The position numbers were made by a program, and so were the translations under genes. The notes below the pieces were generated by a model. It was given only the letters and a program-made list of their open reading frames with translations. It searched no databases and was not told the DNA's origin. A stretch of DNA of 64,000 nt, taken from assembly GCA_030737835.1 (NCBI GenBank), contig CM060852.1:9592507-9656506 (forward strand), written 5' to 3'. This document shows positions 4,425 to 55,494 of the stretch, piece by piece. The DNA is from Acorus gramineus. Its lineage: Eukaryota > Streptophyta > Magnoliopsida > Acorales > Acoraceae. Numbering within the stretch: the first letter of the stretch is position 1; each line of letters begins with the position of its first letter.

Positions 4425-5164
4425 TTTTTTGCATGTATGTCATAAAAAATATTATATTTATTTTTATACCACCATAAATAACATATTTATTTTTATACCA
4501 TTAGAATTTTTCTTAATATAAAAATGTGTCACTTTTTTATCTTTTTTAACTAAAATAGACTTTAACTATAGTTAGTTTCTTAACCAATAAATAAAATTGA
4601 TAAAAATAATCTTAATATATAATATTTTTTTTCATAATGTAAATAATTAAATATAATAATCTAATTAATTTTATGTTCTTTTTAAATCAATCGTAATCCA
4701 TTCACCGTTACTTCTTTCTTTTTCTTTCAATCAAGATCTAATTTTTTTTTTAATTGTATTTTGTAACATATATTATTAATTGTTCTCAAAATAATTTTAT
4801 TTTATTTTTACAAATATAAATATTAATAATTATTATATCTATGCTAATAAATAGTTTTTATGATTAATTTTTATGTTATTGGATTTTAGATGAAATTTAT
4901 CATTTTCATGTTAAAATTAATATTTTTTATCTTTATAAATATTGTATTTGGTAAGGTTAAATATGCAAAAAAATAAAAAATAAGGGTAATTTGATATTTT
5001 CTCTAAGATTTTAATGGTTTTAATAAAAATTTGGATGGAAGTTAACTAGAATGATAAATATGCATAAGTTCTACATATTTCAATGGTATAAAAATAAATA
5101 GTTTATTTGAAGTGATATAAAATTAAATAGCATGTTTTTTAATGGTATACATGTAAAAAACCAC
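4425..5164. mobile_element. Mutator-like non-autonomous element with long inverted repeats
   Basis: The left end (GGTTTTTTGCATGTATGTC, then ATTTATTTTTATACCACC) reappears in reverse complement at the right end (5164 leftward: GGTTTTTTACATGTATACC, then ATTTATTTTTATACCATT). Terminal inverted repeats extend about 90-100 bases. Flanking 9-mers ACGAAAAAA (left) and ACCAAAAAA (right) match at 8 of 9 positions, the target-duplication length of Mutator-like elements. The interior is AT-rich with no coding content. No transposase is visible. Confidence 0.6.
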
Positions 5165-14351: not shown

Positions 14352-14940
14352 TCACGACCCACCATTACCGTACGACCTGGAGATCTCCACCACGGCCACC
14401 TCCGGCGCCGCCGCGAAGACCTCCCCCTCCTCGATCGCCTCCGGGGCGGCGTCGACGGTGAGCGAGATCCGGGGTCGACACAGCCCTTCCTGAATCAGGG
14501 GACGGCCATGATTTCCGGGATCGAGATCCGCTTTACCGGAAAGACAACGGGGAGCCTCGAAATCAGCCTCCTCTCGTCCTCCGAGATCCACCGCGGGAAC
14601 TCAACAATCGGCCTTGAAGGGGAGGAATCCGGCCAGGAGGATGACGTCGGAGGACCATATGTCGGCCTTGTGAGCCGTCGTAGCCCCTCTTTCGGAGGAC
14701 CTCCGGCGCGACTTTCGCCCGGGGGGCGGGGGAACTACGTGTGGTGGAGGAGGCCGTCGTAGCGGAGGTGCTCGGGGAGGGCGAAGAGGCCGAAATCAGA
14801 GACTTTGATGGTCGCCATTGTCGTAGCGGAGGTGCTCGGGGAGGAGATTCTAGGGTTTGAGATCGCGGTGGGAGACGCCGCGGGCGTGCCAGAAGTGGAC
14901 GGCGGAGATTGAGATGCCGGAAGGAGACAATATCGTCCAT
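14352..14940 (-). pseudogene. CIPK-type protein kinase pseudogene, intronless
   Basis: A GC-rich island in AT-rich DNA. Read on the minus strand, kinase motifs appear in the right order but in shifting frames: HARGVSHRDLKP (catalytic loop), then a TAG where the conserved Glu codon should be. Next come VSDFGLFALPEHLRYDGLLH (activation loop), another TAG, VAPEVLRKRGYDG, a frame change, KADIW, LAGFLPF, ISEDERRLISRL and RISIPEIM. The tail EVFAAAPEVAVVEISRS resembles a CIPK C-terminal end. SDFGLFALPEHLR with APEVL.KRGYDG is typical of CBL-interacting kinases of the intronless clade. At least two stops and several frameshifts make it dead. Both the N-lobe and the NAF region appear to be missing. 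Confidence 0.8.
14762..14846. repeat. local duplication inside the kinase pseudogene
   Basis: The roughly 20-base segment GTAGCGGAGGTGCTCGGGGA occurs at about 14759 and again at about 14823, in the same orientation. It corresponds to the EHLRYD codons and shows that an internal duplication contributed to the decay. Confidence 0.7.
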
Positions 14941-16767
14941 TCAGGTGAGTAATTTGGTCATTTATATGAGTTTTTTTATTTATTTATAAATTTTTAAGGG
15001 GTTATCTCAGTCTCCCGTTTGACAACGGAATTAGGGATTGATTCTGTTTTTAATTAAATAGAAAATTCAAATGTATTATCCAACGAGTTTTAGAAAATCA
15101 GTTTAATTAAAAATCTATTTAAGTCATTTTATACAAAATTTTATTTTTTAAGGGACCCGGTTAGGCCTTGATAATTACACTGTCCAACGCAATCATGACC
15201 GTTCGATCTTATCACTTTGAGATATAAAATTTAATTGAATCCTAAAAAAAAAATGTTAGAATTTAATTGATTTTAATTTTAATTTTAAAATCTAATAGAA
15301 TATTTCAGTCATAATGACTCACTAAGATCGAACGATCACAATTATATTGAACCATCGAATTGTCCAACGCATATTGGACCTAACCCGGTCCTATTTTTCA
15401 AACGTGTTTCCAAACATATTCAGAATCAAACATATTTAGAATTGTCTATTTCTAAAGAGGTTATGCATCTTTCTCTTACTTTATTTTTGTGAGGAGTTTA
15501 GTGTTTCATATTTTTATTATAGACCACTAGGAACATGCCCTCTTGATTAACATTCAATTGGATGCGAATCAAACTTTCATTAGTTGGCTAGTGCCTCATC
15601 TCTTTATGAAGAACCCTATTTTTCAAAAAAAATATATTCAAAATTGGATGCGAGACTCAAAAATGATAATTTTTATATTTTTGTGTTTTAAACTTAATTT
15701 TATAAAACATGATTATTGTAGTTTTCAAAAATGAGTTTTTTACACAAAAAATAATAAATAGAGGTTTGTGTTTGGAAACCAACCACTAATTTATGTTTGG
15801 ATCCGTGATTGAATTTTTTAACTCTTCAAACGCATAATTCACCTAAACAAGGATCTAAACAGACCCTAAACCTCCCAGTTTTTTTTATAAAGTGAAAAAG
15901 TGTGATCTCCTATTTTGCAAAAAGTGAAAGAAATTTTATTTATATAAATTAAATTTAAGGAATTCAACAAAAATGTTTTCTAGATAATGTCCCATACCAA
16001 ATTCAGTGTTAGTTACTTGGATACCTACATCATCAAAATTCAGGGTTGGTTTGAGACTTTTTAATAAAATTATCCAAAAATAAATCACAAAAGCAAAGCC
16101 TTAAAAAAAAAACAGAGCAGGATGAATAAACATAGATTTACAGGATCGGACGGCCAAACGATTCCCATGATCATAAATCGATTTTTACTAAAACACCCTT
16201 CACAACTCTTACAAAACAAAGGGCACCTTCTGTGGGTCATTTTAGTAAAAACAAACTTGCATTTGCCGTGGCTTTTGGGATTACCTGTGAAAGATTGTAC
16301 ATAAGACAAAGAGCGGGACGAAAGGCTTTGAAAAGCTCAATTTAAAATTTAAAAAAACAAGAAACAAAAACACCCATTGAAGTCCTCCTCCCCAACAAAC
16401 ACACATCTATTAATAATACTCAATGACCTAATCATTTGATTTTATATAGTCTCAAGTCCCCACCCATATAGTTTAACAATTTTATTTGTTTTGATTACCC
16501 AATCAATTGGGGGTGGTCTTCTTCTCTCTTTCCACAACCATCGTTAGAGAAGTCAATCCGTGAATTTTATGAGCTTAAACGAGGCGAAATGAGTCGAGAT
16601 CGTGTTTAGAGATTTCAAGAAATAACAGATCTGTTCACTCTATCAATAATTGGGTTCATGTTACATACAAAGAGATGTTACTAGGGCGTGGAGGGCGTCT
16701 CGACAGTTGCTTAGATTGAAGAATTTGTATGAAGAATTCATGAAAAGATGGGGCATAAGCCTTGTGG
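14941..16767. other. intergenic upstream of SYMRK
   Basis: Holds the MITE at 15153-15391 and a MITE-like hairpin region at about 15755-15880 (GTTTGGAAACC, GTTTGGATCC, then GGATCTAAACAGACCC). The SYMRK promoter follows: a TTTATATAG motif at about 16441 and a CT-rich stretch at 16510-16530. No coding region for a malectin-like ectodomain is found here. Confidence 0.65.
15153..15391. mobile_element. MITE with GGACC(C/G)GGTTAGG ends
   Basis: The left end GGACCCGGTTAGGCC and the right end in reverse GGACCGGGTTAGGTCC form terminal inverted repeats. Next inside, in both arms, come GTCCAACGC-type and CGTTCGATCTTA motifs. Length about 239 bp. A second, decayed copy is at 13079-13300. Confidence 0.6.
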
Positions 16768-35051: not shown

Positions 35052-38000
35052 TCAGGCAGAAGCCGAAAGCTCCAATAAGCCATTGTGCCGAAGCAAGGCC
35101 TCTGGCGAAGGTTCACGCCCACGAAAATTGATAAACACCTGAAAAACAGAAATTGTGAGGACAAAATGTGTCAAAATCCAGGCCAAAACCTTGCCATAAT
35201 TTTTATAATATATTTTTCCAAGGAGCTGAAGAGTGATCTAACTTATAGCATCAATGCTGCGTGTGTGTGTGTGTGTGTGTCCTGCAATAATAAATGATTG
35301 ACTAGTTCAAGAATAAGTTATTTGCATCAAGCATCAGAGTGTGAACTTCCACCAATTACTGGGACAGCAAACGAAATGAAGAAATTGTCTAACCTCAAGC
35401 GGTGCTTTCCCTCCACCAAGAGCAAGAACGGTTTCTCGGAACTTCTGACCTGTCTCTCTAATGGCCTGTATCACGACAAGATTTCTCCATCAACAGAGAT
35501 TAAAGAGTTGATCTTACAAACATGTTTACTCAATAATATGAAGGAACAAATCAGTGGAAGAAGTTCTTAAAACTCCATAAAGCATAAACTTTGTCTTCAT
35601 ATTCCTGTCTGTTTTTCTTTCTTTATATTTGAAAAGACTTTTATTCTGAAAATCGGTGTCCCCCTTTGTATACCCTGCCGGTGAGGGACCTGAACTCCCA
35701 GCCTCAGGGTGTGTTGACCGGCTAATCAAAGCTCGGTTTGCAAAAAAATGTTTAGAAGATTCTGTCTTTTTGCATACTTGGATGTTTACGGTATAAATAT
35801 ATCTCATGGACATCCCCCACCCATCTCAAAAATCCTCTAGAGCGCATAAAAGGATGAATGCAAAAACCTTTTACATTATCCTACTATATTCATCGGTACT
35901 TAACACACGTAGAGGAACTTCATGCACATACGGATATCACAAGCTTAGATTGATTAACATTGTGGAATGATAAGGTGAGTGCATTGTCCACTAAGGTCTA
36001 TTCCTTATGTTTACTTAAGCGCACAATTACTCAAGTTGAGAGCCTGTGTTAAAGATGAGTTCGATTCTATTTTGACTTTCAGGGTAGGCATGATCATATT
36101 GCTATCACTTATCTCCTGCTCCCACCCCCTCTTCCCCTTCTTTTTTTTTATCTTCCTTATATGGTTGGTAGACCCAGGTCCGCTATAGTGCATCTAGAGC
36201 TATGATGCAAATCAGGAATCGGAGGAGGAATGGAACATTTAAAAGATAGGGATATGACAAACTAGAAGACCTTTATTGCTCAACAAACCATAAATACAAG
36301 TCAAAAGGGTTTGAAAGGCCTCTTTCAAATTCACAAAATAAAATACTAAAACTTTATGCTCTTTTTGCACCCCCCCAAAGGGGTTTATTTATAGACCTTT
36401 AGGAGCAATTTGATTGGGCCATACATATCATTAAACCAATTTGATTAGTCCATACACATCACCTAATGGAATAATTTGATTGGTTTGTAGACATCGTCAA
36501 AACCAATATGATTGGTCCATCACCTAATCCTAACAAATTATTATCCAATACATAGATAAAATAAAAAAAAATTACTAACTAATTATCTAGGTAATCCTAA
36601 AATAAATCTAATCCTAAAATCAATTTAATCTACTCTGCATCAAGCGATAACTAAATTTTCATTTAATTTAGGTGGTGAGCTCCCACCTTTTTTAAAAAGA
36701 AAAAGAGAGAAAAAACTATTTCGACTCAGACTTCTTCCTGAGATGTGCTCCAATGCCAACCATTCTGATGGGGACGAGACTGGTAGGTGCTGTAGCAATA
36801 AATGCATTATTCTAATTTTTGGTTTTTAAGGTGACTCTTTTTTAAATCACTGAGCTATCATTATCTGAGAATTGGTGTAACAATTAGTTCATTTTGCATT
36901 ACCAGTAGGGGTAGTAAACGAGCCGAACGAGCCGAGCTTTGACCCACTCAGGCTCGGCTCGTTTAGTATCGGGCTCGGCTCGGCTCAGGAACGATCTTTA
37001 TTTTGTATTCAAGCTCGGCTCGTTGGGTTCGTGAAAAGCTCGGTTGAAGCTCGGCTCGGCTCGTTTGTTAAACAAGCCAAGCCGAAACTCGAATTAAGGC
37101 TCAGCTCGGGCTCGTTTAGCTAAAAAAAATCTTGTATAGCATTTGAGAAGTCACATTTCACAAATCATAACACCTTATACATGTGAAAGTAACATAAGCT
37201 CGGGCTCGGCTCAGGCTCGGCTCGGGCTCGGCTCGTTCACCTTTTTTCTGTTAAGTAAACGAGCTCGCCTAGGCTCGGGCTCAAGCTCGGCTTGTTTACA
37301 AACCGAGCTTTATAAATTGTTCAAACTCGGCTCGTTTGTCTAATCGAACGAGCTTGATCGAGCTTTAACCGAGTCAAGCCCAAGCCGAGCCTGAGCTGCT
37401 CAACTCGTTTACCAGCCCTAATTACCAGTCAGGAAAATTTATTTTTTTGTCTAAAACAAAACCCAATGTAATAAAAAATTGCAGACCCTAAAACAATAGT
37501 AAAATCCAACATGACTGGTCACACTGCAAAAATATAAGACTGTTATGGAAGCATTGATGGAAGACAATGTAACGGTATATATATAACATAAAAACACCTT
37601 TTCGTTGTCCAACCCAGCATCCTCAAATGCCGAAAAAGCATCTGCTGATAACACCTCCGCCCACTAGAGGAAACACAGATCAATAATCAGAAAGTACCTC
37701 ATAAAAACAAACACTTGGGGAAAAATAGCACCTGGAAAAAATTGAGTCTGCAGGGATCTCAACAATATTTTCCACACATCAAAAGGAATAGTTCCAACAA
37801 TAAAATATAAAATGAAAAAGCCAAAAAAAAAAAGTTGAATAACTAGTGGAACTTCAAATAAATATCTACAAGGGATACCTTGTAACTATAATATCCAGCT
37901 GCATATCCACCTGAAAACCCCCCCAAAAAAAGTGAGCCCAAATGTATGAGATAAATCCAAAAAAGGAAGCTAAATAGTGATAAAATAACGTCAAACCTGC

Positions 38001-41000
38001 AAATATGTGACTGAAACTACAGAGGAATCTGTCCTCTGGCAACGGGAGCATAATTTGTGTCCTCTTGCTTACTCTCTGATCAACATCATAAATAGATTCT
38101 GACCCTCCAGGTACATATTTTGAATGTAGCTCCAAATCTAGACTAGCAAATCTTAACTGCAAGTTCAGTTGCAACCAGTTACTACCCACATCAACCAAAT
38201 CAGCTGCTACTAAACTTGGCACCAAGTATGATTTTACAACAAAATCTTCAATATAATATAGGATGACAAATGAGCAGCTGTGCACCAGCACAAGCTGTCT
38301 TACACACTTCCATTGCATGCCCTTTAGTAACGTATAATCTTTAAACCAATACTTCCTGACATCCAATATCTTCTTCAAAAAAAAGAGAGAATTTTCATGT
38401 CTGACAATAAACTCTAATTTGTACTAGCCAATTCTCTTTGATAACTATTTGTGCATTATTATATATTAGAATGTAAATTATAAGTTCAATATGCGTTTAC
38501 AGCTACAAAGAACGTATGCTGTCAAGAGTAATATTTGTAGACACCGTGGGTCAGCATGACCTGGGGGCGAGACTATTTTGCTGCAGCCTGTGCAGTGACT
38601 GCAGGAGCGCAAAGCAGTTGCTTTTTGGTTAGGAAAAGTGAACACCATGAGAAAGTATAAAAAGTCGAACTTGGAAATTCTGAACGGAGAAGGGAATGAG
38701 CAAACAAATTAAGAGACCACTAATTACAGGCATGACATAATGCTTACATTGACGATAAATGGGAGAACACAAATTTTGTTTGTGTCTATTGAAATGGTAC
38801 CCTTGTATTCCATGGAAACATGAGTTAGCTGTGGAAGATTGGAGCCATCTATAAATTTTCTGACTAATCAGCATTTAGATACCAAAGAACCAGGGTTTAC
38901 AGTTTAATTCCATATTCATGATGTATGTTCCTATAATACCTAATTCATGGCAATTATTCTCAATTAAGATCGAAAGAAACAACCTCCCACAATGATCAGC
39001 AAAAAATATAAGTAACATGAAAGCAATGCAGAAAGATTTATTTTAAAATAAACATACAAGGCAGGAGGTGACTGTTTCAATTGAAGTCCACCAGTGGATC
39101 CTACTGAACTCACCAGAAGGCAATCAACGTAGTGAGTAGAATGGATGATTCATTTCCACTTTTGGCGACGCACAAAAGCAATGAATAAAGTACGATATTA
39201 GACTAGTTTTTTCAAAATATATAGCTTGGGAATGTACTGGAATTAGGTGCACTACCCAAAAGTATTTAGATTCCAGAGAACAGGGCTAACTTTTTAAATA
39301 ATTTGGTCAACACACACACTAGTCAATAATTACTCAAGTCAATAATTATTCAATTAAGGGCAAAGAAATAAACTTCCAGCGATGATCAGGAAAAAAAGAT
39401 CTGCAACATAAATTCACGGCAGAAACATATATTCCTTTTATTAATAAACACCTACCGAAGTATTAAAAAAAAAAAGCATTGAATGATGAGCACCTGACCA
39501 TAAAATCCACATGGCTTGCTGACAAATTAACATGTTAAACTAACCTGACGAAGGGATAGAGAACCAGCATTAAAAGTCCTAGCTGCCAGAAGCTTCAAAT
39601 ATACTTCTTCAGGAAGGGGATCACCAGTTTCATAGTGTCTTGCAATGCTCATTAGAGTATCCCTGGAACATCATACAGAATTATCAAATAAAAATGTTTC
39701 TTACACAATTACACAAGTATAATTTGTAATCCAAGGCTCTGAATACTAAACAGTACCCCTCTCTTCCCCCCCCCCCCACATAGTTTGTGTGTGTGTGTGT
39801 GTTGAATGACTATAGCTTAAATGGTGCCTGGTATTCTTCTTGAAAAATATGCAATACCCATTAAAATGTATATCCATTACACCATGTTGTACATTAGCAG
39901 GGGAACAACCCAACCCATACAAATTGTCAAACTGACCATCAGAATATTCTACCTAAACAAACGATATTATTACTTTTTCAGATCTTCCTGCAAATAAGCA
40001 AGAAAAATTATCAGCCTTGCCAATTGACATATATCTCGTAACAATGGTTCATTGAATTTAAAATAAAAATAAAATATATTAGACAATGAGCACGGATAGT
40101 TTATCATAATGTGAAATTTTTATTTCAAAATCACTCATGGGCAGTGATAGAAGTATGAGAAGGGTTAAAAGAAGGAAGCTAATCTGACTTATGAGGTATT
40201 TAGGTGTATCAATAAGAAAATATCACCTTTGATAACACCAGTTCTCCATAAATTGGGATGGTAGTTCAACAGCATCCCATTCGATTCCTCGAATTCCTGC
40301 GACCAGACCTTCATCTTGTTTGGTGAGCATATGTTGCAATGCATGACCAAACTCATGAAAGACAGTCTCAACCTGAGTATCCAAGCAAATATTTGCCTTA
40401 GCCACTCATAAAAGAAATTAAGCACACAAAGATCGATAATCATATCCTTAGGGAACAACCAATATATTAAGCCATACATGCAGTAAAAATAATAAATATT
40501 ATGCATCACTGTCCCAATCAAAGGAAGTGGATCAATTGCCCTATACTTGTGATAGTTGTTTCTTGGGGGAACGGTATCATATGAACATAAATACTAATGT
40601 GTGAGGCACTTACCTCACGGAAAGTCATAAGACTCGGCTTGTCACCAACTGGAGGTGTCTGATTGCACACCATGTGGGCAACAGGCAGCCTAGCACTGGT
40701 ACCATCACGTGCAAATACACGACTCCGAGAAAGTACTTCATCCATCCATGCTCCACCGCGTTTTTCAGAAGGCCTTGAGTAAGGATCAAAATAGAAATAC
40801 GCAATGGGATCTCCTAATGAATCTTTCACACAATAGAATCTGACATCATTATTCCAAACCTGGAAAGTTGAGAAACACTCTCAGATAGTAAGAAGTTACA
40901 TGAGTTCTAATCACAAACACCAAAAAACTAGAGTATATACTATGTACCGGAGCTAAACCATCAGCTGGTTCAATGTTGATATCAAAGAGGGTCTTTGCAA

Positions 41001-44000
41001 GACTAAAAAGGCCATCCATAACTTTTGGCAGTGAGAAAAATGGCCGAAGCTCCTCCTGTGAGGTTAGAGAAGATGAATTTTTAGATATTTAATAAAATGA
41101 AAAATGTTGTCCTAGCATAACGAATCCATAATTTTTAAAGAACCGGTTGGAATCCTACCACCAAATTTGTTAAAATTTATGTACAATTCCAAAAAGGATA
41201 AAGCTGCACAAATAGGTGTGCAACTATTAATCACATGTATTTTATAAGCTGATGGATGATTTTATTAATTTTAATTCTCTAATTATCACGCTTTCAAATT
41301 TTTATAGGTATATTTGAGATGAGAATACTATATTTACATGGTAACCATAGTTCACACAGAGTCACATGGTTATCATAATTCACTAGTTAAATAATAAATT
41401 AATGAATAATAATTACAAAAATAACCATTGCAATTCAATTAAAAATAAACAACCAAATACAAAGATGAGAAAACTCATTACGACAACAAAAAAAAATATC
41501 ATAATTCTGAAGCCATCAATCAACCAAAAAGAAAATCACAATACAGAATCCTAACCAAAAGAGCAAATAATCATGTGACCAATTAAAGCATCACCTTTAC
41601 CAATCACTATCCAAGCAATTAGGTTAGCTATTTATTTTTTTGTAGTTTCCATCAAATCTCAACTAATCATATATTTCAATTGCAACTATCACAATTAATA
41701 GGCCAAGTCCATTAAATATCTCCTTGACCCATTTATTATACCTAGGCAAGCTGGCCCAGGCGCTCCTGATAAACAGGCCAGTTAGGCAAACACGACCCAT
41801 ACGGGTCTGGTGTTAAGATAAATCATGAATGATAAACCATGCGCATTTTTGGGAGAACTAGGAGCCACAGATGAAAAACTATAGATCCGGTTTATATAGA
41901 AGATTCAGCTGAAGAGGTAATTTTGAAGCTCAAATAGTTGAGAATGTCTCAGGCACTAGTGTCCTATTCCAGCATATAAATATCAGATAGTTTCAACTTT
42001 TTTTTATTGAGCAAAGGTAGACCAGGTAGTTTAAACTTCAGTTATGAAATCCATGTTAATGTCATCCAACAATGTGTCATGTCACGTTCTTCCCCAATGG
42101 GCATCATACTAGAGCCAAAGCTTCACATGGTGTCAGATGACTTCAAAGCTTCATCTCCAGAATATTTAAAGAAGAAAAATTCTCTTTGAAGTATGCAAAT
42201 AGGCCTCTAATTAGCATATCTATCATATCCCAATGAGTAAAAAATGAAAAAGGAAAATTCGGGATCAAAATACTGAAGGAAACATTCAATAATAATTTCT
42301 TGTTATGATACCAGAAAAGGATATCATCAATATAGCCGATGATAATAATAAAAAAAATCATTATTTTTGTGTAAAAGGTATACAGAACTGGTTGTATGAC
42401 AGTTTGACGCTGTGACTGATGAATTGCCATAGAGATAATCAGACACACTATATAAAATATGCTTTTGCATCGCATCATGTATATGTTTCCAAGTCTTAGA
42501 GACTTAAAGAGTTCTCTTTGGTTGCATGAGACCACTAACAGGCGCCACTACTCACCAGCCGATTTTGACAAATAACATCATAGCATAGCCCTAGTAACAA
42601 ATAAGGGTAATTAGCACTTTTAGCCCCCCAAAATTGAAAATTTACAGAAATAGCCCCGCCACCCGAATATTTGTAAAAACTAGACCCGCTGATATTTTAC
42701 ACTGGAGACGGATTATATATAATCCGTCTCCAGTGTTGCAACCCGTAACTGCCCCATTTACAATGGAGACGGATTATATATAATCCGTCTCCAGTGTAAA
42801 TCACCCCTTTATTGAATTTACACTGGAGACGGGTTTTATATAACCCGTCTCCTGCAAACGGATTGTATATAATCCGTCTCCTGAAGACGGATTATATACA
42901 ATCCATTTTCAATCTTAATTTTTTTTTTTGGTTGTATACATTATTGGTTATCTCACCTGTATAAAAATTCCTGCTTGAACATGCATAAATATAATAAAAA
43001 TGCATTGATATTTGCATAAATCCATTATAATCACTTGACTCCTGTTTCTAAACACCAACGAAAATACATAAATACAATAAACACAAATGAAAATGCATAA
43101 ATATAATAAACATGTTTTACATCCCATAAATACAATCATCCAAATATTTTCATAAGTCCTTTCTTTTTAGCTTTTCTCGGAGCAGGAGGTGCTGATGAAG
43201 AGGGTACGTCAGTTGCTGTGGATGGCGGCACACCTGATTGTGGTGGAGTGGTAAATTGTTCGCCCGATCCCCGACTGACAGTAGTAGAAGTACACCAAAC
43301 CCTGCGTGGTCCACGAGTATATGTCTGGAGTGTCATCTGTGGAGCTCGATCAGGAGCTGGGGCTGGTTGTTGTGGTTGCTCATCGATTTCTGCATCGAGT
43401 CGTACATCATTGAAGAACTCATCAATTGTGAATTCAGTGTGAGCGAAACTATCATCTACGACATCCTCAGAATCATCAGCATCTGTAGATGCACTGGAGG
43501 TACAAAGTTGTCCCCTGTCTCCCATCATCGCCTCTGCATAGTCACGTGTCACAGCAATTATACGATCCCACTCATCGCAGTTGGGGTATAAGACCAACCC
43601 CCTTGCAAGCACCTCGGTAATGTTCTGTGTAACTCCCCCCTGTTAACAAAAGTTTCAATATGATAAGTAGTTATAAAATCATTTATCACTATCTAAAAAT
43701 GTAACACGCGTTTAAAATTCTTACCGAATTTGGTGCGACATAGCCTGGATGGTACTGTGGGGGTGGTGGAGGTGTGATATGTCTGACTATTCTCTCCCAG
43801 TACCACTCCATATATCTCCTCGAACTCCGGGTATGAGAGAATTGGTGGATGTGATCCAATCGTTGGTCCCAACGCTCGATATAAGTCTGGTGAAAAACTA
43901 TCCAATTCACATCCTGTCTACCTCGTCTGTTTACCCGGTCGATGGCCTCTACATCAGATGGAATGTCCTGATGCCATCCAAATTGACGTGCGACTCGATC

Positions 44001-47000
44001 TGGCACGTGCATCTCCACAATATCAAAGCAAATGAGTGGGACCCTAGCCGTCCACAACTTCATATGATCCATACATGCAGGTGGTAGTGTCTCATATGTC
44101 CCAGCATATGGTTTGCTTCCGATAGCCTTTGCTATAGTTGAATCTCAGCATATGGTTTGCTTCTAGCCTTTGCTATAGTTCTCAACTATAGCAAAGGCTA
44201 TCGGAAGCAAACCATATGCTGGGACATATGAGACACTACCACCTGCATGTATGGATCATATGGAGTTGTGGACGGCTAGGGTCCCACTCATTTGCTTTGA
44301 TATTGTGGAGATGCACGTGCCAGATCGAGTCGCACGTCAATTTGGATGGCATCAGGACATTCCATCTGATGTAGAGGCCATCGACCGGGTAAACAGACGA
44401 GGTAGACAGGATGTGAATTGGATAGTTTTTCACCAGACTTATATCGAGCGTTGGGACCAACGATTGGATCACATCCACCAATTCTCTCATACCCGGAGTT
44501 CGAGGAGATATATGGAGTGGTACTGGAAGAGAAAAGTTAGACATATCACACCTCCACCACCCCCACAGTACCATCCAGGCTATGTCGCACCAAATTTGGT
44601 AAGAATTTTAAACGCGTGTTACATTTTTAGATAGTGATAAATGATTTTATAACTACTTATCATATTGAAACTTTTGTTAACAGATGGGAGTTACACAGAA
44701 CATTACCGAGGTGCTTGCAAGGGGGTTGGTCTTATACCCCAACTGCGATGAGTGGGATCATATAATTGCTGTGGCACGTGACTATGCAGAGGCGATGATG
44801 AGAGACAGGGGACAACCTTCGAGTACCTCCAGTGCATCTACAGATGCTGATGATTCTGAGGATGTCGTAGATGATAGTTTCGCTCACACTGAATTCACAA
44901 TTGATGAGTTCTTCAATGATGTACGACTCGATGCAGAAATCGATGAGCAGCCACAACAACCAGCCCCAGCTCCTGATCGAGCTCCACAGATGACACTCCA
45001 GACATATACTCGTGGACCACGCAGGGTTTGGTGTACTTCTACTACTGTCAGTCGGGGATCGGGCGAACAATTTACCACTCCACCACAATCAGGTGTGCCG
45101 CCATCCACAGCAACTGACGTACCCTCTTCATCAGCACCTCCTGCTCCGAGAAAAGCTAAAAAGAAAGGACTTATGAAAATATTTGGATGATTGTATTTAT
45201 GGGATGTAAAACATGTTTATTATATTCATGCATTTTCATTTGTGTTTATTGTATTTATGTATTTTCGTTGGTGTTTAGAAACAGGAGTCAAGTGATTATA
45301 ATGGATTTATGCAAATATCAATGCATTTTTATTATATTTATGCATGTTCAAGCAGGAATTTTTATACAGGTGAGATAACCAACAATGTATACAACCAAAA
45401 AAAAAAAAATTAAGACTGAAGACGGATTGTATATAATCCGTCTCCAGGAGACGGATTATATACAATCCGTCTTCAGGAGACGGGTTATATATAACCCGTC
45501 TCCAGTGTAAATGCAATAAGGGGGTGATTTACACTGGAGACGGATTATATATAATCCGTCTCCATTGTAAATGGGGCAGTTACGGGTTGCAACACTGGAG
45601 ACGGATTATATAATCCGTCTCTAGTGTAAAATATCAGCGGGTCTAGTTTTTACAAATATTCGGGTGGCGGGGCTATTTCTGTAAATTTTTAATTTTCAGG
45701 GGCTAAAAGTGCTAATTACCCAACAAATAATTGGTTTTCCAGGATTTGGCACCAGCTATAGAGCTTTGACAAGTGATAAAACTATGTCAACCTTGCCATG
45801 AAGCCTCTCATATTTTCATATGAGTGATGGAGAAAACAGCATAGCCATATGCAGCAACAAACCAAACCACATTACACATAAATGCAAGTAGCAGCAGTTT
45901 CTGCATAACCAACCATTTAAAAGTGTACGATATAATAAATATAGTCAACCAAATTCAAAGAAAACTTTGAATGTCCATTTACTGCTTGTACTTGGGAGAA
46001 GGTGGGTTCGGCTCTAGGGTGCAACTCGGGCGGGTTGGGTTGGGTTGGGTTGGAGCCCAACCTGAACCTAACCCGAAGTTGAGGGAAACCAACCCAAACC
46101 CAACCCAACCCTTAAACCTGAGAAGCTCAACCCAAGCCCAACCTGTCAGGTTTGGTTCGTGTTTAGGTTAGATTTAGGTTGGGTTGGGGTTTGACTTAAA
46201 ATCGTGTCATTTTAAACAATTAAAACTTTACGAGAGACACTGCTCCACATTAAAAAAATAAGATGAAAATGAGAAAAAATTTATTTATAGAATAAAGAGA
46301 TGAAACTATAGAGGTGATAGATTCTAAGCAAAAATAAATTGGACACTTTAAATCTTATCTCACTTATTAAAAAAATTAAAATATGACTTAGAACATTTAA
46401 ATTTATCATTCTTTACTTCAGGTTCAGGTATCCGAATTCTCAACCCAACTCGAATTAGATTCGGGTACCTGAATGCTAAAATCTTGACCCAAACCGGCAA
46501 CGCTCAAATATAGAGTTGGGTTGGATTCAACCCATCCAAGTTGCACCCCTAGGCTAGATGCTCCTTTTCAACCTCAAAGGCATGTGGGATGGTTCCATTG
46601 GAGTAGTAAGCAAATCGATCGTAGCAACCTTGCTAAATTTCAATTGCTTATTCCTCATGTGGTGTGTTGGAGCACATGGATCACTCAAGATGATGATTGG
46701 ATCTTCCAACATATGAGAGTCCATGATGTGAATACTTGGGTTATAATCACATGATTTCTTAAATAATGGGTTATCAAGATTCTAGGAGTGCATGTGCTTT
46801 AAATATTATGGGCCACACATGGTTCCAGGTGTGATGCATAGGGGGCACTTGGTGTAAGGCTTATTGCAAGATGAGGAGGGGTGTTTTTTTTGTATTTTCT
46901 TCCTTTCTCTTTCTCGGAATCCCTAGTTTCCTTTTGTTCAAGGCAATCAATATAAATAGATTGCTCCTTCTGTTTTTCAAAAAAAAAAAAAAAAAGATTG

Positions 47001-50000
47001 TTCCTACATTCTCTCAAAATTTTTCAAGAGAACTTACAAGCAGAAAACAGAAAGAAAGGACAAATGGAAGGAGCAACCTACCTCATTTATATCATATTTT
47101 GCCTCCCGAAGCCTCTCACTCCAAAAGGTAATGTCCCAATGGTTCAAGTCATCAGCTTCCACAGCACCTTGTTCTTTAGCAAACACCTTCAGGTCCTCCA
47201 TTTCTGATAGATATTTAGAAGTTATGTGACTAAAACTGTTTTTATAATGAGATAAAACAGGACATTCAAGATTATTGCAGAAAAATTCTATTGCTCCAGC
47301 AGATATCACAAAATGAAATTTAAACAAAGATTATTATTGCTTATAAACAGTTATATTAGTAGAACACAACTTTTACAACAATCCCATAAGGCATTAATAG
47401 GAGAACTTGTGGGTAGGTCAACGTTTAAAGAATTAATGCAGATCCTAATGAACCACATGATCTCAGTCGCTTATCAAGGCCCATTCTAAAAATATTGATA
47501 TCGTAAAGAAAAAAATAGAGGTACAATTTTAACTTAGTTTAGTTCATCAAAGATACATAGTTATATGATTTTGATATGTTAATTTTTATTTTTAAACCAG
47601 ATCCATCAATTAACTATTTATTATTTGATTCAAACACAAATATGTTCAAATTTGTGTAAGCTTAGTTTAGTTCATCAAAGATACATAGTTATATGATTTT
47701 GATATGTTAATTTTTATTTTTGAAACAGATCCATCAATTAAATATTTATTATTTGATTCAAACACAAATTTGTTCAAATTTTTGTAAGCCAAGCTTTGCT
47801 TAACAGGTAAGCACCAACTTCTCCCAAACGACGACTGGGTTACAATCCCATACCTAGTGTCCTTGCAATTCAAATTCTTTATTGATTGATACTCTATATT
47901 GAATATGAGAAAATTTCTTAAGAACATCTCCTAGTTTTGTGTAATGTTTGCTAACTGTGGATAAAAGATGAAGAATGGTTCATTGTTTGATAAATTTAAA
48001 AAACATGAAAAATAAATTTAATGACCTTTTAGTAAAAATGTTTGCTACATTGTGATGACTGTGATGCTACTCCTCCTCGGTTGGTCCACTAATTACAAAG
48101 TAGTGTACATATATGTGGATGAATCCCCATGGTCCATATACTATCCTTCCCTTTTGCACACTGATCTTCTTAGATTCTCTATCGTTGTTTATAGACTTGT
48201 TCACAATTCTCTTTCTACTTTATATTTTTACTTGTGAAGAAAAACAATCTTGTATTTGTTAGTGCACAAGGCCATGATGAGTCATACCATCTTTTCTCTC
48301 AGAAAACAGAAAATGAGCAGAAATGGAGGATGTCATGTTTTGTTAAGGCATCTACCTTGAATTGCAGCTTTCCAAGAAGCACTCCGAAGCTTTTCCAGGA
48401 GCTCTTCTGCTTTCTCAACAGTGGCCATTTTCATTGCCATACTCACCTAGACAAAAGACAGCTTCCTGAAAAATTCTCGGAAAGGACAAAGCAGAAGAAA
48501 ACCAACACCATACCTCCGCATAGTTGTTGTATCCAAGAAGTTTTGCCTTCTCCAGCCTTAGCTTGAGAATTTGATCAATAATAGCAGTGTTATCAAAATC
48601 CCCACTAGATGCACGGGTATAATAAGCACGATAAACTTCTTCACGTAAAGAACGATTCCGTGCATGTTGCATAACAGGTAGGTAGCTTGGAGCATCCAAT
48701 GTGATCATCCATGGCCCATTCTCAGCAGTAGCCATTACATGACCCTGTGGGAGGAGAAGGCATGGAGAAAGGTGGTCACTCACATGCACAAATGTAATGT
48801 ATTAATTGCATTATATGCATAACTTTTCAGGTTTCATTGATGGATACCTTGGATACTGCTGTTTGTGCGGCCAGACCAAGTGCAGAAGGGGGCAATCCTT
48901 CAATCTCGTTCTTATCTGTAATCAACTTTTCAAATTTTTTGATGGAATCCAATACATTTTCACCAAATTTCTGTGACAATTTTTCAAGTTCCTGAAACCA
49001 AATGAATGTAAGATGAGAGAAAACAAATCTAGTTAATGAAGAAAAGGAGATCTCTCTCCTACTACAATTAAACGAATTGCATCCAACCATTAAGCAAACA
49101 ATTTGTCAATTTCAAAGAGAATCCTTTCTCTTTTTTATCTTTTCTCAAAGAAATACTTTTTTTTTATTATTATAGTTTCAATGTTAACATGCATGAACTT
49201 GGCTACTAAAGATGACGAGGTGTGGAAGAAGAAAGCTGAACTGGGGTTTGCTCACTTGATGTTAATGCATTCAACAATTCCCTGGCTCTAAATTCTCAGC
49301 AGGCTCCCCAGTGACAGAGGATCAATTTTTATGGTCTAGAAGGTTTATGAAATATCTGTACACTAGCGAAGGTTCAGATGTTTAATACCAGCTTTCACCT
49401 GGACCTTGTGATTAAATATAGTTATAAACAGAGTGATAGGATCTGTATATGCCCTGAGCATGATCTCTCTTGTGTTCTGTGCAGTGGGGAAGATCAGAAA
49501 ACATTTCTTTTGAGAAAGGTAGACAACGTACCACGATGTATTAAGATAAGTCATACGAAGTCAGAAGATACAGAGGGACCAAGAAAATGGTAGAATAAAA
49601 GAGGATAGAAAAACACATAATCAGGTCATCCACCCGATGCCAGCTAGGAACAGTAGATGAGCTTTCTACATTGGATGAAAGTTATGCCTAGTTTCACTCC
49701 TCAATCACAGGTTTCGTGCGGGAAGATCAGAGAGCATAGCTTCAGAATCTATTTGTTAAATACCCTTTCAGTATAAGGATATGACTAAAGCTGGAAAATG
49801 CTAGGGGTAAACTTCTTAATGCCAACTCAATTTTTCAGGAATTTCATTACCAACAGAAGGAGGTCTATTCCCATGATGCCACATGCAGTGTGCTAAGCCA
49901 TTTGGCTATCTAGGAATGAGAAGCTATTTGGATGGAAAGAGTGCATTTTGAAAATACTTATGCTAGTGATGTGTTTATGCTACGTGATTGGAGTACCAAT

Positions 50001-52752
50001 ACCCTAAGGGCTGAGACATGCAGTATTTCTGAAGGGATGTTTTCCATTGAGTGAAGTATATAATGTGGGATTTGGTGTCTTTGAGGGGAGATTCCTCGTG
50101 TCCCCTTTTCTTCTCTTCTTTTTTCTTTCTTTTGCTTCTTTGTGTTTGTTCTCTTGCTTCCAAGTTTTAATAAAACTGGCAACACTACCCATTTCATATC
50201 TTTTTTCAGAATATTGTTGTTTCATATCTTTTTCAGAACAAAATTAATAAAATTTGCTAGTCTCATTACCCATCTCACATACTATCTTGGCAGTATGGTG
50301 TCTTTGAGGGGAGATTCCTGGAATGAATTATTTGATCGCTGAATATTTGATTCTTACTTCAACTTGGAGTATTTTCACAATTTTCCATTCATTTATTCCC
50401 GAAATACAAAGTTTTTTAGCCCTTGATTTAGCATGAGCTATGCTTGGTGTCCAAAAAGGTCCTTGATTCTATCCTTAAGAAAGCAAAAGAGTATACTCAG
50501 CCATATTGAAGTACAGATTTCAATTGATACCTTTTAATCACTTGGGTTTGTGATAATTTATATAATACATATGCTTGGGACAATAAAGAGAAATCCCAAT
50601 AAATCTTTGATTTATTATTAAGATTACTATTAGAAAACGAATTTCTTATAGTAGAAATTAGCTGAATGATATTTTGATTTTTTTCATCATTTTTCTTCTA
50701 TAATTACAGAAGCCTGTATGCATTCTATTCAATCATATCTTCATAAAGATATATGCAGAATAAAAGAAATACATAAATAAAACCATCCCCACATATGGAT
50801 TCTCAAACAGACTTAATGATTCTGGTATGATATGAGTAACATTAAATCATTCAATTATCCATTTAAAAGAGAAAACAGAAAACACAATCACCAATTAAAG
50901 ATTACCTGTTCGATTTTATTGAATTGTTCTCTTTTGTCATCTTCAAGAGAAACTCCATTAAGAACTGCCTCCTTCACCTGACCTGCACAAGAAAGAGATT
51001 ATGTGCATTAAAGAAAAAGCAAAACCACATAACTGTATGGGTGAAAATTCCTGCAAAAATAATTGGTAATCAGATGTCACATAAGAGATAGAGTTGTTTG
51101 GTGCAAAACCCAACTAATAATGCTGATATTTTATATTCATCTTCAATAACATATTTGATTATAATACAAAGTGCATTGACAAGTAATTAGAAATTGAGAC
51201 AAGTGATAATAACAGTGAAGAGTTTTGGATCATACACTGCCAAAATGTTTAGAAATTGAGAAACATTTCCATGATATGGAATTAAAGGAAATTAATTTTA
51301 ATGTCAATGAAACCAGAGGGCCAATTAAAACACATGCATTCTTTAATTGAAAACATGAATATTATTAAAGTCAAAAGTGCATAATACCTTCTACTATCCT
51401 TTTTTGAGCATCGTTCAATTCTTCCCAGCTTGATGATTCTTGCATGGCCTTAAATGCATTGTAGATGGGTTTGCTTTGTCCCAACCTAAGCTGAAATTTT
51501 ACTTTCTCTGGCTGTTTAGGAGGAAAATCTTGTCTTAGTGCTCTGAACGAATTGATTCTTATTTTTAAAAGAAACAATGAGACCTTTTTCCCATTATTCT
51601 CAGTGATATTGCAACATCATGTAAAATATGCCAGCCACACACAGATGACTATTTTTCACTATAGTGAAAATTTGAAAATATAAATAAAAACAAACATATA
51701 GGAGCAGACGTTGATTTAGCAATGAAATAAAACATGTAAAACTAAATATTATAAAACATACTATTGATATAATAGTGAATTTTCATCAAATTTATACTCT
51801 GGAACATGGCAATAGGATAAATTGATGGCATCCACACTCTGGAACATGGCATTAGGAATATCATTTTTTGTATCGAACTCCATAGGGAACAACACTTGAT
51901 GGAAAATTGAGGCATGATAGGAGATCGGATAAACATATGACGTAGAAATTTTATTATGCCACTCATGATGATTGTCTTTATCTGTATCAGTTTCCACACA
52001 GCCTAGCCAAACTAAGCCAGCAGACGTAATATCCCTCTGTACTGAAACCTCTCAATATATCAAACTTTTTATATCACAAATTCCATAATTAAAAAAAATC
52101 AACGAAAACGCATGCAAATACTAACAGTCCAGATTCAAAAAAATCATAGAACAGAAGATTTCAAACCTGAACTTCCTCGACAGCAGACCGCAGCTCGGGA
52201 CAGTCCTTGACCGCCTTGAGGTGGTTGACGGCGCCCCAGACAACTTGAAGCCCATCGACGATCCTCTCCAGCGGCTCCACCAGCCTCGGCCACGTCGGCT
52301 CCACCCTACTCTCCAGATCCACCAAGTCCCCCTCCTAAAACCACAAAAAAAAAAAAACCAATCAAAACCCCCATCCAAACAAACAAAAAAAAAACAACAG
52401 AATCAAAATGAGAGAAACTCACGAGTTTCTTCAAGAGAGCTCGGATCCCGGGGCGGACGTGCTCGGGGTTGACGGCGTCGAAAGGGGGGAAGACGAAATC
52501 CTGGAGGAGCGGATTGTTGCCTTCTAGGGTTTCTCCACCGAGAACGGACGAGGACGACGAAGACGCCATGGACGAGGAGGAGCAGGAGAAGAAGCTGGGG
52601 GAGGTGGAGCGGGAGAGGTGGGAGAGGCAGAAGGAGAAGGAGGAGGACCAGAGGGGACAGGGGAAGGATTTATGGGAGAGGAAGGGGTGAGAGAGAGGAA
52701 GACGAGGGACTGATGAGCGTGCGAGGGGTATTAAAGACGCGGTGACGAGCAT
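35052..52752 (-). CDS. OOP: oligopeptidase A, organellar (OOP/TOP1-like)
   Basis: An M3-family zinc metallopeptidase; the Arabidopsis relative (At5g65620) degrades targeting peptides and other short peptides in chloroplasts and mitochondria. Seventeen exons: 52752-52423, 52334-52167, 51511-51388, 50982-50906, 48991-48848, 48744-48514, 48446-48356, 47203-47082, 41055-40948, 40859-40614, 40372-40227, 39662-39545, 38156-37997, 37910-37879, 37663-37598, 35465-35394, 35138-35052. The frame holds throughout; 773 residues against 791 in Arabidopsis. Zinc site HEFGH 553-557; third ligand probably E583 in [12 protein letters not shown]. The N-terminal 90 or so residues are Ser/Leu/Arg-rich, like an organelle transit peptide. 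An in-frame ATG at 52854 would add 34 residues. Intron 8 (6 kb) holds the giant inverted repeat and intron 15 (2.1 kb) a solo LTR and a hAT MITE. A cytosolic form is less likely because of the N-terminus. Confidence 0.93.
35640..35745 (-). mobile_element. SINE-like fragment, minus strand
   Basis: On the minus strand, GATTAGCCGGTCAACACACC is A-box-like and GGGAGTTCAGGTCCC is B-box-like, at tRNA-type spacing. It ends in AATAAAAGTC. It lies in intron 15 of the oligopeptidase gene. Confidence 0.5.
36203..36642 (-). mobile_element. solo LTR, 440 bp, minus strand
   Basis: Both ends read TGATGCA...TGCATCA. Flanking five bases are AGCTA (left) and AGCGA (right), a 4-of-5 match. On the minus strand GGTCTATAAATAAACC gives a TATA box and, about 110 bases downstream, GCAATAAAGG a poly-A signal, the R-U5 layout of an LTR. 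Three near-copies of AATTTGATTG(G/A)NCCAT at 36400-36520 are probable upstream repeats. Located in intron 15 of the oligopeptidase gene. Confidence 0.65.
36906..37420. mobile_element. hAT-type MITE with GGCTCG subterminal repeats
   Basis: Terminal inverted repeats TAGGGGTAGTAAACGAG and (reverse) TAGGGCTGGTAAACGAG are flanked by an exact 8-bp duplication ATTACCAG (36898-36905 and 37421-37428), the hAT target length. The interior is packed with more than twenty GGCTCG/CGAGCC hexamers in both orientations, a transposase-binding type arrangement. No transposase gene; 515 bp. In intron 15 of the oligopeptidase gene. Confidence 0.85.
39769..39802 (+). repeat. C run plus (GT)n microsatellite
   Basis: A run of nine or so C's, then a (GT)n run, in intron 12 of the oligopeptidase gene. 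Confidence 0.8.
42695..42915. repeat. cluster of GAGACGG...CCGTCTC palindromes, left arm
   Basis: Three or four units in a row, each built as GAGACGGATTATATA and its mirror, mostly set between TTTACACTGG and CCAGTGTAAA. The first unit, 42704-42731, is a perfect 28-bp palindrome. Its TATATA core makes each a strong hairpin. The cluster starts about 90 bases from the element end, the usual place for transposase-binding repeats. Confidence 0.85.
43136..44072 (-). CDS. plant mobile domain (PMD) fragment, left arm
   Basis: Two exons, 44072-43725 and 43639-43136, with a GT-AG intron. Segments such as [31 protein letters not shown] and RYMEWYW are those of the C-terminal part of transposon-derived PMD proteins (MAIN-like; often labelled serine/threonine phosphatase 7 long-form homologue). 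The N-terminal part of the domain is absent because the arm stops at the centre of symmetry. Exon 2 is Asp/Pro/Ser-rich and ends [10 protein letters not shown]. It has almost the same sequence as the copy at 44251-45190 on the other strand. It is transposon cargo, not a host gene, and it reads in the same direction as the oligopeptidase gene around it. Confidence 0.6.
44251..45190 (+). CDS. plant mobile domain (PMD) fragment, right arm
   Basis: Mirror copy of 43136-44072: exons 44251-44598 and 44684-45190. The frame is open upstream of the ATG to a stop at 44176, so the methionine is only the first available one and not necessarily the true start. Compared with the left copy there are about four residue changes in exon 1 (for example K/E at position 5 and ERI/KRK near position 92). 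Exon 2 has a few more and one extra codon. It opposes the direction of the host gene. Confidence 0.6.
45415..45630. repeat. cluster of GAGACGG...CCGTCTC palindromes, right arm
   Basis: Mirror image of 42695-42915 with the same order of units. One unit near 45597-45622 is two bases shorter in its TA core than its partner and is now imperfect, a small difference that has built up between the arms. Confidence 0.8.
46015..46551. mobile_element. hAT-type MITE with GGGTT subterminal repeats
   Basis: Ends TAGGGTGCAACTCGG and (reverse) TAGGGGTGCAACTTGG are inverted repeats. Just inside are arrays of GGGTT (plus) and AACCC (minus) motifs. The 8-bp flanks (about CGGCTCTA and AGGCTAGA) agree at only 5 of 8 positions. 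The structure matches the hAT MITE at 36906-37420 but with a different subterminal motif. In oligopeptidase intron 8. Confidence 0.65.
46552..46997 (+). mobile_element. LINE 3' end remnant with poly-A
   Basis: A stretch that reads HVVCWSTW with a run of Asn/Asp/Trp codons, like the zinc-finger end of plant LINE reverse transcriptases (CWxIWxxRN), followed by an untranslated part and a run of about 17 A's at 46979-46995. Short and decayed. A comparable phrase (HAVCWAIWLSQNE) is at 63060-63130. Confidence 0.45.
47533..47788 (+). repeat. two-copy 128-bp tandem duplication
   Basis: CTTAGTTTAGTTCATCAAAG at 47533 recurs at 47661 and both copies continue through CATAGTTATATGATTTTGAT and TTATTTGATTCAAACACAAA. 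Only a few bases differ. In oligopeptidase intron 7. Confidence 0.85.
47790..47935 (+). mobile_element. SINE-like fragment
   Basis: GCTTAACAGGTAAGCACC as a weak A box and GACTGGGTTACAATCCC as a B box, at tRNA-type spacing, directly after the tandem duplication. No clear A tail. Confidence 0.4.
49100..50880. other. oligopeptidase intron 4
   Basis: Long intron (48992-50905). It contains a probable retroelement 3' region at about 49940-50180, ending in a CT-rich stretch and TTAATAAAACTGG. An exact 23-bp direct repeat lies at 50074-50096 and 50297-50319. A near-duplicate of GTTTCATATCTTTTTTCAGA occurs twice at 50190-50240. No gene seen. Confidence 0.6.
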
Positions 52753-54218: not shown

Positions 54219-54658
54219 ATACGAATGACTGAGAATCAATGAAGCTCTGAATTCAGAGTCAGATTCTCATGCAGTTCTACCTCAACTTGATTACTAGACT
54301 GTATGTCCATCTCACCATATGCCAACAATGCATTGCTATGGTCAAAATTAAACAGATATGGTGGAAAAACAAAACGTCGGGCCAAAAGTGGTCTGTTTAT
54401 CCATTTTGAAGCAAGCATTCTTAATATATATACATTTTAATGGAAGAAATTCTGGACCATCACTTCTCTATAAATCACAAGCAAATGCCATGTAGTTATC
54501 ACCTCGTTCGTCTTTGTTAAATTAAAATGCTACTGCCACGATCCATCTGCTTGCTGCACATAAAATGAGCAAATTAGTAGTGTAAATTTGATTAGAGACT
54601 GACATGAAACGGCATTTGAAATAAACTACTTTCATTTACAAAACCATATGATAATAAA

Positions 54659-55494
54659 AGGGAAAAATCATCTTAACTCCCTGAAATCTTCTTAAAATCA
54701 TAAAAAGTCACTCTAAAGTCAGAAAATCATTCTAGATCCCCATAAAATGTATATGGTTAACGAATTTAGTCCCATGGTCAAGCGTATATTGAAATAAATC
54801 CTTAGAAACTTACTAAAATTGGATTAAGTCTCTACAAACTTTATTAAGACAGTTTAGTTTTTTTGTAAGACAAAAACACCCCCGTTATTTTTCAATATTC
54901 TCATCTCCTGAAATGTCATCTTCATCTGTAAAAAAAAATATCGATCAAATCTCATTTGATCTATAAAATTGAGTCATTTTTCAACATTTTCACCTTAATC
55001 TCATTACAGAGATTGAACAAAAAAAATAACAACTTCATCAACTCCATTACAAAATCAGTAGAGAAAACAATTTAAAAATCCAATCAAAATTCTATAATAC
55101 ATTCTTAACTTCAAATTAGTAGCAATAAAAAACATAACACCTTGATTATAAAACTATAATTTGTTTAATAAAATTTAAATAAATTAGTATATATTTTTAG
55201 ATAATCACATGGAGTTTTTGTGATTTTAAGAAGATTTCATGGAGTTAAGATGATTTTTAAATTTTTCGATTTTCATAAGTTTTCAAGGAGTTATATTGAT
55301 TTTTTTCAACAAAGAAAATAAATTTTAAAAGGGTAATTTATCATGCATGGTTAGGTTAACCACACATCTGGTCAGTTATAAGGACTAAAATAAATATTAT
55401 CTAATAAGATAGGGACCTGAGTGAATTTACCAATTTTACAAGAATTTTTTCTGATTTTCATAAATTTCCAGGGAGCTAGATCGATTTTTCCCTA
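54659..55494. mobile_element. Mutator-like non-autonomous element
   Basis: The left end GGGAAAAATCATCTTAACTC and the right end in reverse GGGAAAAATCGATCTAGCTC are inverted repeats and stay similar for about 45 bases. Both ends are flanked by TAATAAAA, giving an 8-bp (possibly 9-bp with one change) target duplication. A further mirror-like segment at 55200-55310 suggests nested or repeated arms. AT-rich, no coding content. Confidence 0.6.

Follow-up and report, generated by a model that had tools for sequence, protein, structure and literature searches.

The 64,000-nucleotide stretch of Acorus gramineus DNA analyzed here (the window) carries a gene for oligopeptidase A on its minus strand, and a long palindromic element lies in the eighth intron of this gene (Table 1). 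The intron, with its donor at position 47080 and its acceptor at 41056, is 6025 nt long and lies between the eighth and ninth coding blocks, in agreement with the 6-kb intron 8 of the first-pass annotation; the number counts recognized coding blocks, and an additional 5' untranslated exon is possible. The coding blocks on both sides of the intron match the oligopeptidase A structures 4put and 4ka7 in the PDB, the short block at 41055–40948 having been located using a bait sequence. The joined coding blocks are 95% identical to the Acorus calamus protein P0125 over 100% of the query, the top identity among the best 120 of 7956 matches, none of which bears the name A. gramineus. This identity and the open coding blocks on both sides of the intron suggest that the host gene is functional.

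The element extends from 42605 to 45721 (3117 bp, 52% of the intron), exactly as first annotated, and comprises two inverted arms and a 40-nt center within a flanking duplication; it is thus wholly one inverted duplication, with arms of 1.54 kb, as had been proposed. The flanks match exactly at k = 9 (AACAAATAA) and at no other k tested between 4 and 15, so that the 9-bp duplication reported previously is exact. Both ends, read inward, have the sequence GGGTAATTAGCACTTTTAGCCCC. With up to 3 mismatches allowed, this 19-nt terminus occurs twice in the window, at the two element ends and nowhere else, whereas 100 shuffled sequences gave 0.03 occurrences on average. The arms align over 1535 positions with 27 mismatches and 7 gap columns (1542 in total), corresponding to 98.24% identity; the description of the arms as nearly identical is therefore appropriate, but the foldback, at 98.2%, is not perfect. 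The longest exact stretch common to both arms is at least 250 and less than 300 nt, and the longest other inverted pair in the window is 66 nt (82%; pairs of at least 45 nt, seed 14). A family of subterminal palindromes (D1, 10 copies) forms arrays at both element ends. Most of the center repeats, in direct orientation, the innermost end of the left arm (from 44099), with 1 mismatch and a 3-nt deletion. No second related element was found in the 64-kb window, where the matches listed by masked self-BLAST (at least 30) are 14–39 bp long with a best E of 0.014. A search of a plasmid collection gave no match, Rfam gave 0 matches at gathering thresholds, and none of 4 pattern matches to viral contigs was confirmed.

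Table 1. Positions in the window of the host gene, its eighth intron, and the parts of the palindromic element
Feature	Positions	Strand	Basis
Oligopeptidase A (M3 peptidase) gene, recognized coding blocks	35076..52515	-	protein matches
Intron 8 of the oligopeptidase A gene, 6025 nt, contains the element	41056..47080	-	GT donor, AG acceptor
Left TSD copy AACAAATAA	42596..42604	+	exact match to 45722-45730
Left arm: terminal region, PMD 3'UTR and PMD 3' exons	42605..44141	-	98.24% complementary to right arm
Left subterminal array of short GGAGACGGATTATATATAATCCGTCTCC-type palindromes	42695..42919	.	repeat family, tandem repeats
Last PMD exon to stop, left arm	43136..43639	-	3-nt in-frame gap vs right arm
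PMD exon fragment, left arm, open reading frame	43725..44141	-	ORF list, protein comparison
Center, 40 nt	44142..44181	.	local alignment, direct repeat
Right arm: inverted copy of left	44182..45721	+	arm alignment
PMD exon fragment (3' part of domain), right arm	44182..44598	+	spliced reading
Last PMD exon to stop, right arm	44684..45190	+	ORF list, spliced reading
Right subterminal palindrome array, counterpart of left	45409..45631	.	repeat family, tandem repeats
Right TSD copy AACAAATAA	45722..45730	+	exact match to left copy

Each arm contains part of a plant mobile domain (PMD) gene, as claimed in the first-pass annotation. The translations of 43689–44144 (minus strand) and 44179–44634 (plus strand) match Pfam PF10536 (PMD) with E values of 1.7e-22 and 1.3e-22 and scores of 80.6 and 80.9 bits (cutoff 34.9), and in each arm the match is confined to the 3' third of the model (about positions 241–346 of 347). 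The left-arm PMD sequence has the sense orientation of the host gene, and that in the right arm is antisense to it. The first 9 codons of the arm product (right-arm fragment) are not PMD-like, and the alignment starts at residue 10 in six of seven Acorus proteins (P0001, P0002, P0003, P0005, P0006, and P0007); the seventh, P0004, aligns only from residue 116. Two A. gramineus proteins are close relatives of the arm products, P0002 (97% identity over 129–130 amino acids) and P0005 (90–92% over 63 amino acids). An absence of matching PMD elements elsewhere had been named as an observation that would count against the original proposal; at the protein level, matches are provided by these two proteins. 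The related proteins appear to come from other Acorus loci. Only residues 198–338 of P0002 were placed in the window by tblastn, indicating that residues 1–197 are encoded outside it, and five Acorus PMD proteins compared with the window in this way gave no match beyond the two arms.

The differences between the arms are unevenly distributed, with 14 mismatches in the distal 339 positions (4.1%), 2 in the middle 557, and 11 in the inner 641. The distal part is more diverged than the rest (p = 0.0006, for regions picked after inspection), and a binned test of uneven divergence gave p = 0.035. A single duplication followed by uniform decay is therefore too simple a history, and the distal part of the arm may be derived in part from the other end of the element. 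Codon differences comprise 9 nonsynonymous and 2 synonymous changes, a small count (11 codons) for which the expected nonsynonymous share is 0.73, and the idea that purifying selection has preserved PMD coding in the arms was rejected on this basis. When polarized with P0002 and P0001 as outside sequences, the changes that appear to belong to the left arm are those at residues 27 and 169 of the arm product together with the gap region at 183–185, and those that appear to belong to the right arm are at 115, 138 (by P0002), 139 (by P0001), 164, and 178; at residue 117 both arms differ from P0002. The polarity is not unanimous, because the more distant P0003 agrees with the right arm at 138 and with the left arm at 169. 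Both arms have apparently decayed neutrally since their formation, and this pattern provides no sign of a selected host function. The excess of transitions among the mismatches (21 as compared with 6) is compatible, as weak evidence, with deamination of methylated DNA; CG context accounts for 3 of the 21 transitions and for 102 of 640 cytosines and is not favored, so that the sign of methylation is not strong. The K2P distance between the arms is 0.0178, which at rates of 1.3e-8 and 7e-9 gives an age of about 0.7–1.3 million years, a rough estimate in view of the uneven divergence.

The element is very probably a non-autonomous derivative of a Mutator-like element (MULE) that arose by inverted duplication of one element end. 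Its exact 9-bp target site duplication (TSD) and the long terminal inverted repeats formed by the arms agree with the earlier assignment to the Mutator-like type. Because scanning of 14 of the 28 listed open reading frames revealed no transposase domain, membership in this group rests on the TSD length and the long inverted ends. As judged by arm identity, the two termini derive from a single element end, although the distal 339 bp differ more; this is the plan of Mu killer (Muk), to which the element had been likened, and the likeness is supported. The duplicated part, however, consists of PMD 3' exons instead of a transposase gene, and the ends are built of internal repeats, as in foldback elements. 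Most likely, a strand switch during repair or replication of a PMD-carrying MULE led to the copying of one end twice, a mechanism that we infer from a 27-nt non-PMD filler found where each arm meets the center and from the center itself, which is a slipped copy, 40 nt long, of the inner arm end. The element may have jumped into intron 8 as a ready palindrome or may have formed there from an earlier insertion; the 9-bp duplication is compatible with both routes. It would then have decayed, neutrally as far as is apparent.

The predicted hairpin has a minimum free energy of −2928 kcal/mol with 1520 of 1530 pairs formed between the arms, as compared with −464 and −478 kcal/mol for the arms alone, values computed without a shuffled control; 1111 of 1517 left-arm 21-mers are exactly present in the right arm. 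Transcription of the host gene would thus produce an intron RNA with a hairpin of about 1520 arm-to-arm pairs. The likeliest consequence, to which we give an even chance, is occasional dicing to yield siRNAs that methylate the element itself.

The alternative that survives best, plausible although short of an even chance, is that the palindrome is an inert intronic passenger, methylated and heterochromatic with little or no siRNA, across which the host gene is spliced. The features that suggest a working host gene are consistent with this, but a long inverted repeat in transcribed DNA, here one of 1.5 kb, is a classical dicer substrate. Muk is an example of such a substrate (PMC2563033), whereas heterochromatin-marked intronic transposable elements within transcribed genes have also been reported (PMC7145194, PMC4417168). 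Somewhat less probable is an amplifying foldback MULE family, in which the palindrome moves as a unit and is present in many copies, like FARE or Tm1. MULE-type foldbacks are known (PMC3169594), and the exact TSD around the entire palindrome and the internally repetitive subterminal ends fit this possibility; however, the TSD would survive rearrangement in place too, and the arms contain gene exons rather than repeats alone.

The proposal of the first-pass annotation was that of a host-embedded silencer, in which oligopeptidase transcription gives rise to hairpin siRNAs that silence PMD transposons in trans and the element is kept for the benefit of the host. This is unlikely, and effective trans-silencing of related PMD elements by the candidate hairpin is possible with a similarly low probability. 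The computed hairpin capacity, the 21-mers shared by the arms, and the close PMD relatives in A. gramineus argue for a silencer, but the arms are without sign of constraint, and an intron hairpin is normally removed by splicing and degraded in the nucleus. The Muk hairpin of maize, the precedent on which the proposal was based, is reported to yield siRNAs (PMC2563033), and PMD genes give rise to 21-nt phasiRNAs in tea (PMC10673657). For Muk, the read-through step is contested. Sense read-through transcripts from the flanking amy4 gene were seen in maize plants in which silencing failed; plants that did silence had short antisense transcripts originating within Muk, with minor longer hairpin transcripts left possible (PMC3440606). 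The read-through mechanism is weakened by this result and also because the duplicated end here is the PMD 3' end, not a transposase end with a promoter. Slightly less likely again is the element as a TSD-bounded analogue of Mu killer in a presumably widely transcribed gene, in which, without a PMD promoter of its own, host read-through would make the predicted double-stranded RNA, directed at the final exons, the 3'UTR, and the element ends of Acorus PMD-MULEs. Transposon-borne PMD genes have been suspected, as speculation, of counteracting silencing (PMC5418596, PMC8616336). If the analogy is true, a trap set for the candidate anti-silencing proteins that transposons carry would have originated outside maize and persisted in a wild plant. 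Long-read sequencing is known to generate long palindromes artefactually, but an assembly or read artefact (fold-back chimera) is highly improbable and was rejected because the arms differ by 27 mismatches and 7 gap columns with apparent private changes in each, have decayed since their formation, end exactly at the terminal motif with an exact 9-bp duplication, and flank an unequal 40-nt center.

No example of a transposon silenced by a rearranged derivative of itself is better known than Mu killer, and PMC2563033 and PMC3440606 disagree on whether a read-through hairpin or a short antisense RNA triggers the silencing. A natural palindrome in a host intron, with a known center and exact ends, would provide a test of that dispute outside maize; if no siRNA is made from it, a 1.5-kb inverted repeat can reside in a gene without use as a silencer. 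No description of a PMD palindrome in an intron appeared in the titles and abstract openings of the open-access literature retrieved with the terms used. The main text of PMC3310237, on MULEs with multiple TIRs, does not contain "palindrom," "foldback," "Mu killer," or "inverted duplication," and in the available portions of the Acorus genome papers, Mutator and MULE have 0 occurrences each.

The known systems that the element resembles comprise four groups. (i) Like Muk, it is a rearranged Mutator-type element with both termini from the same end and part of a gene in inverted duplication (PMC3440606, PMC2563033). In Muk, duplication affected the end next to mudrA (TIRA) and left partial copies of this gene, and the TIRs of MuDR carry promoters, whereas here the PMD 3' end is duplicated, with the PMD copies running outward from the center. 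The palindrome here, unlike Muk, is bounded as a whole by a TSD and is intronic, and its center has been sequenced, whereas that of Muk could not be amplified. Silencing by Muk has been shown genetically, whereas that by the Acorus element is hypothetical. (ii) The foldback MULEs, FARE in Arabidopsis and Tm1 in root-knot nematodes, have similar long inverted ends with internal repeats, and the TSDs of Tm1 are 8–10 bp, most commonly 9 (PMC3169594). Tm1, however, is a multi-copy family with ends built of repeats, whereas the arms here also hold gene exons. (iii) PMD-carrying MULEs likewise have PMD coding sequence within a MULE-type element, and fusions of PMD-C with MULE transposases have been reported from Amborella and several grasses (PMC5418596); in the Acorus element, the open reading frames scanned contain no transposase domain and only the 3' third of PMD is left. 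(iv) In tea, PMD genes yield 21-nt siRNAs that act on the same family, but these siRNAs are phased and originate from 175 PHAS loci located at PMD genes (PMC10673657), whereas the candidate source here is a palindrome in an intron.

The palindromic element is real and well preserved; it carries PMD sequence, lies in an intron and has a plan like that of Mu killer (Muk). Its reading as a MULE-type derivative, which covers both structure and origin, is likely. The coordinates of the element in the first-pass annotation were exact. The foldback described there as perfect and gene-sized is indeed a gene-sized inverted duplication, but a near-perfect one: across 1535 aligned positions the arms show 27 mismatches, besides 7 gap columns, and are 98.24% identical. 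The 23 nucleotides at either end of the element are identical, and the claimed 9-bp flanking duplication, AACAAATAA, is exact and the sole length that fits among those from 4 to 15. The terminal motif is found at the two ends and nowhere else in the window, where the next-longest inverted pair is 66 nt with 82% identity. Elsewhere, a 54-nt inverted pair (89%, spacing 502 nt) is possibly another small terminal-inverted-repeat element, and two weaker pairs (66 and 65 nt, 82%) may be the borders of transposon remnants.

Positions of the element, its parts, the host gene and other inverted pairs in the window
Feature	Position	Remark
Element	42605-45721	3117-bp palindrome
Left arm	42605-44141	aligned to right arm
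Right arm	44182-45721	aligned to left arm
Subterminal arrays	42695-42919 and 45409-45631	short, nearly perfect palindromes of the GGAGACGGATTATATATAATCCGTCTCC type; one family has 10 copies
Host gene	35076-52515	minus strand
Host intron 8	47080 to 41056	6025 nt
54-nt inverted pair	54656-55265	
Weaker inverted pairs	13079-15389 and 4443-5141	

Moving inward along each arm, the terminal motif is followed by an array of palindromic units of about 29-61 bp and then by an AT-rich 3' region; next come the last PMD exon, including its stop, an intron bounded by GT and AG, and a segment encoding the 3' third of the domain. The PMD gene part reported for each arm was recovered as a match to PF10536 of about 80 bits per arm (cutoff 34.9), and both copies are directed outward, away from the center. 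No domain besides PMD was found in the 14 ORFs scanned of the 28 listed with at least 50 residues. When the right-arm product (the translated PMD exons) served as a protein query, five of 1501 candidates matched at E <=1e-3, all from Acorus. Identity to the arm products is 97% across 129-130 residues for P0002 (A. gramineus), 90-92% across 63 for P0005, 62-63% across 303 for P0001, and 56-57% across 312 for P0007, an A. calamus protein from a separate search. P0002 represents a different locus because the window holds just its residues 198-338. PMD is the sole Pfam domain in the five relatives checked. The C terminus of P0002 runs into the PMD intron, like the unspliced left-arm ORF, so its public gene model probably lacks the last exon. 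P0004 (A. gramineus), named polyadenylate-binding protein RBP45C, has a 110-residue stretch about 65% identical to the arm product, which could mean either that a related PMD fragment sits in a further host gene or that the gene model is chimeric.

At the inner end of each arm, about 27 nt, or the initial nine codons of the arm product, are non-PMD; of the seven Acorus proteins compared, six align from residue 10 of this product onward and the seventh from its residue 116. The center is 40 nt, as claimed. Most of it is a slipped repeat copy of the innermost end of the left arm, from which it differs by one mismatch and a 3-nt deletion. Non-PMD filler together with a slipped copy is, we infer, the trace to be expected of strand-switching repair. 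Derived states occur on both arms when P0001 and P0002 are the outside references, and the arms therefore probably mutated independently since duplication; with the more distant P0003, polarity is reversed at residues 138 and 169. The codon differences between arms (9 nonsynonymous, 2 synonymous and 1 in-frame gap; expected nonsynonymous share 0.73) are small in number and fit neutral decay. Divergence is uneven, at 4.1% in the distal, 0.4% in the middle and 1.7% in the inner part (p = 0.035 in a binned test and p = 0.0006 for a contrast chosen post hoc). The distal part may partly predate the duplication, for example by derivation from the parent's other end. The element may be the product of a single event or belong to a foldback family.

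Translated blocks of the host gene match oligopeptidase A (PDB 4put, 4ka7), the remaining coding blocks having been located with a bait sequence, and the joined blocks are 95% identical to an A. calamus oligopeptidase A across the full query. The intron put at 6 kb is confirmed, and the element occupies 52% of it. Among the 120 matches listed for this gene, two are A. calamus oligopeptidases and none is named A. gramineus; the gene model in that species may be broken, fused or omitted.

A host-sense transcript would contain the right arm (antisense PMD) followed by the left arm (sense PMD). The predicted fold of the host-sense element RNA alone has an energy of -2928 kcal/mol, with 1520 of 1530 pairs arm-to-arm, as set against single arms only (-464 and -478 kcal/mol). 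Early polyadenylation is a possible further effect: downstream of the PMD stop, the hexamers AATAAT, TATAAA and AATAAA each occur once in the left arm in host sense, although hexamers of this kind are frequent and are no proof of it.

PMD siRNAs would not be far-fetched because, according to PMC10673657, PMD genes of tea feed 21-nt phasiRNAs. The chances that the element yields putative siRNAs are evenly balanced; useful trans-silencing by it is improbable. Muk, to which the element had been likened, forms a 2.4-kb hairpin that is processed into siRNAs, according to PMC2563033. PMC3440606 instead links silencing to a pair of short antisense transcripts that originate within Muk, and still allows for long hairpins. 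Judged by that account, a host promoter driving the silencer is the weakest link of the analogy because read-through from the flanking gene occurred in plants that failed to silence. Muk and the element are alike in plan, whereas the site of the element is intronic.
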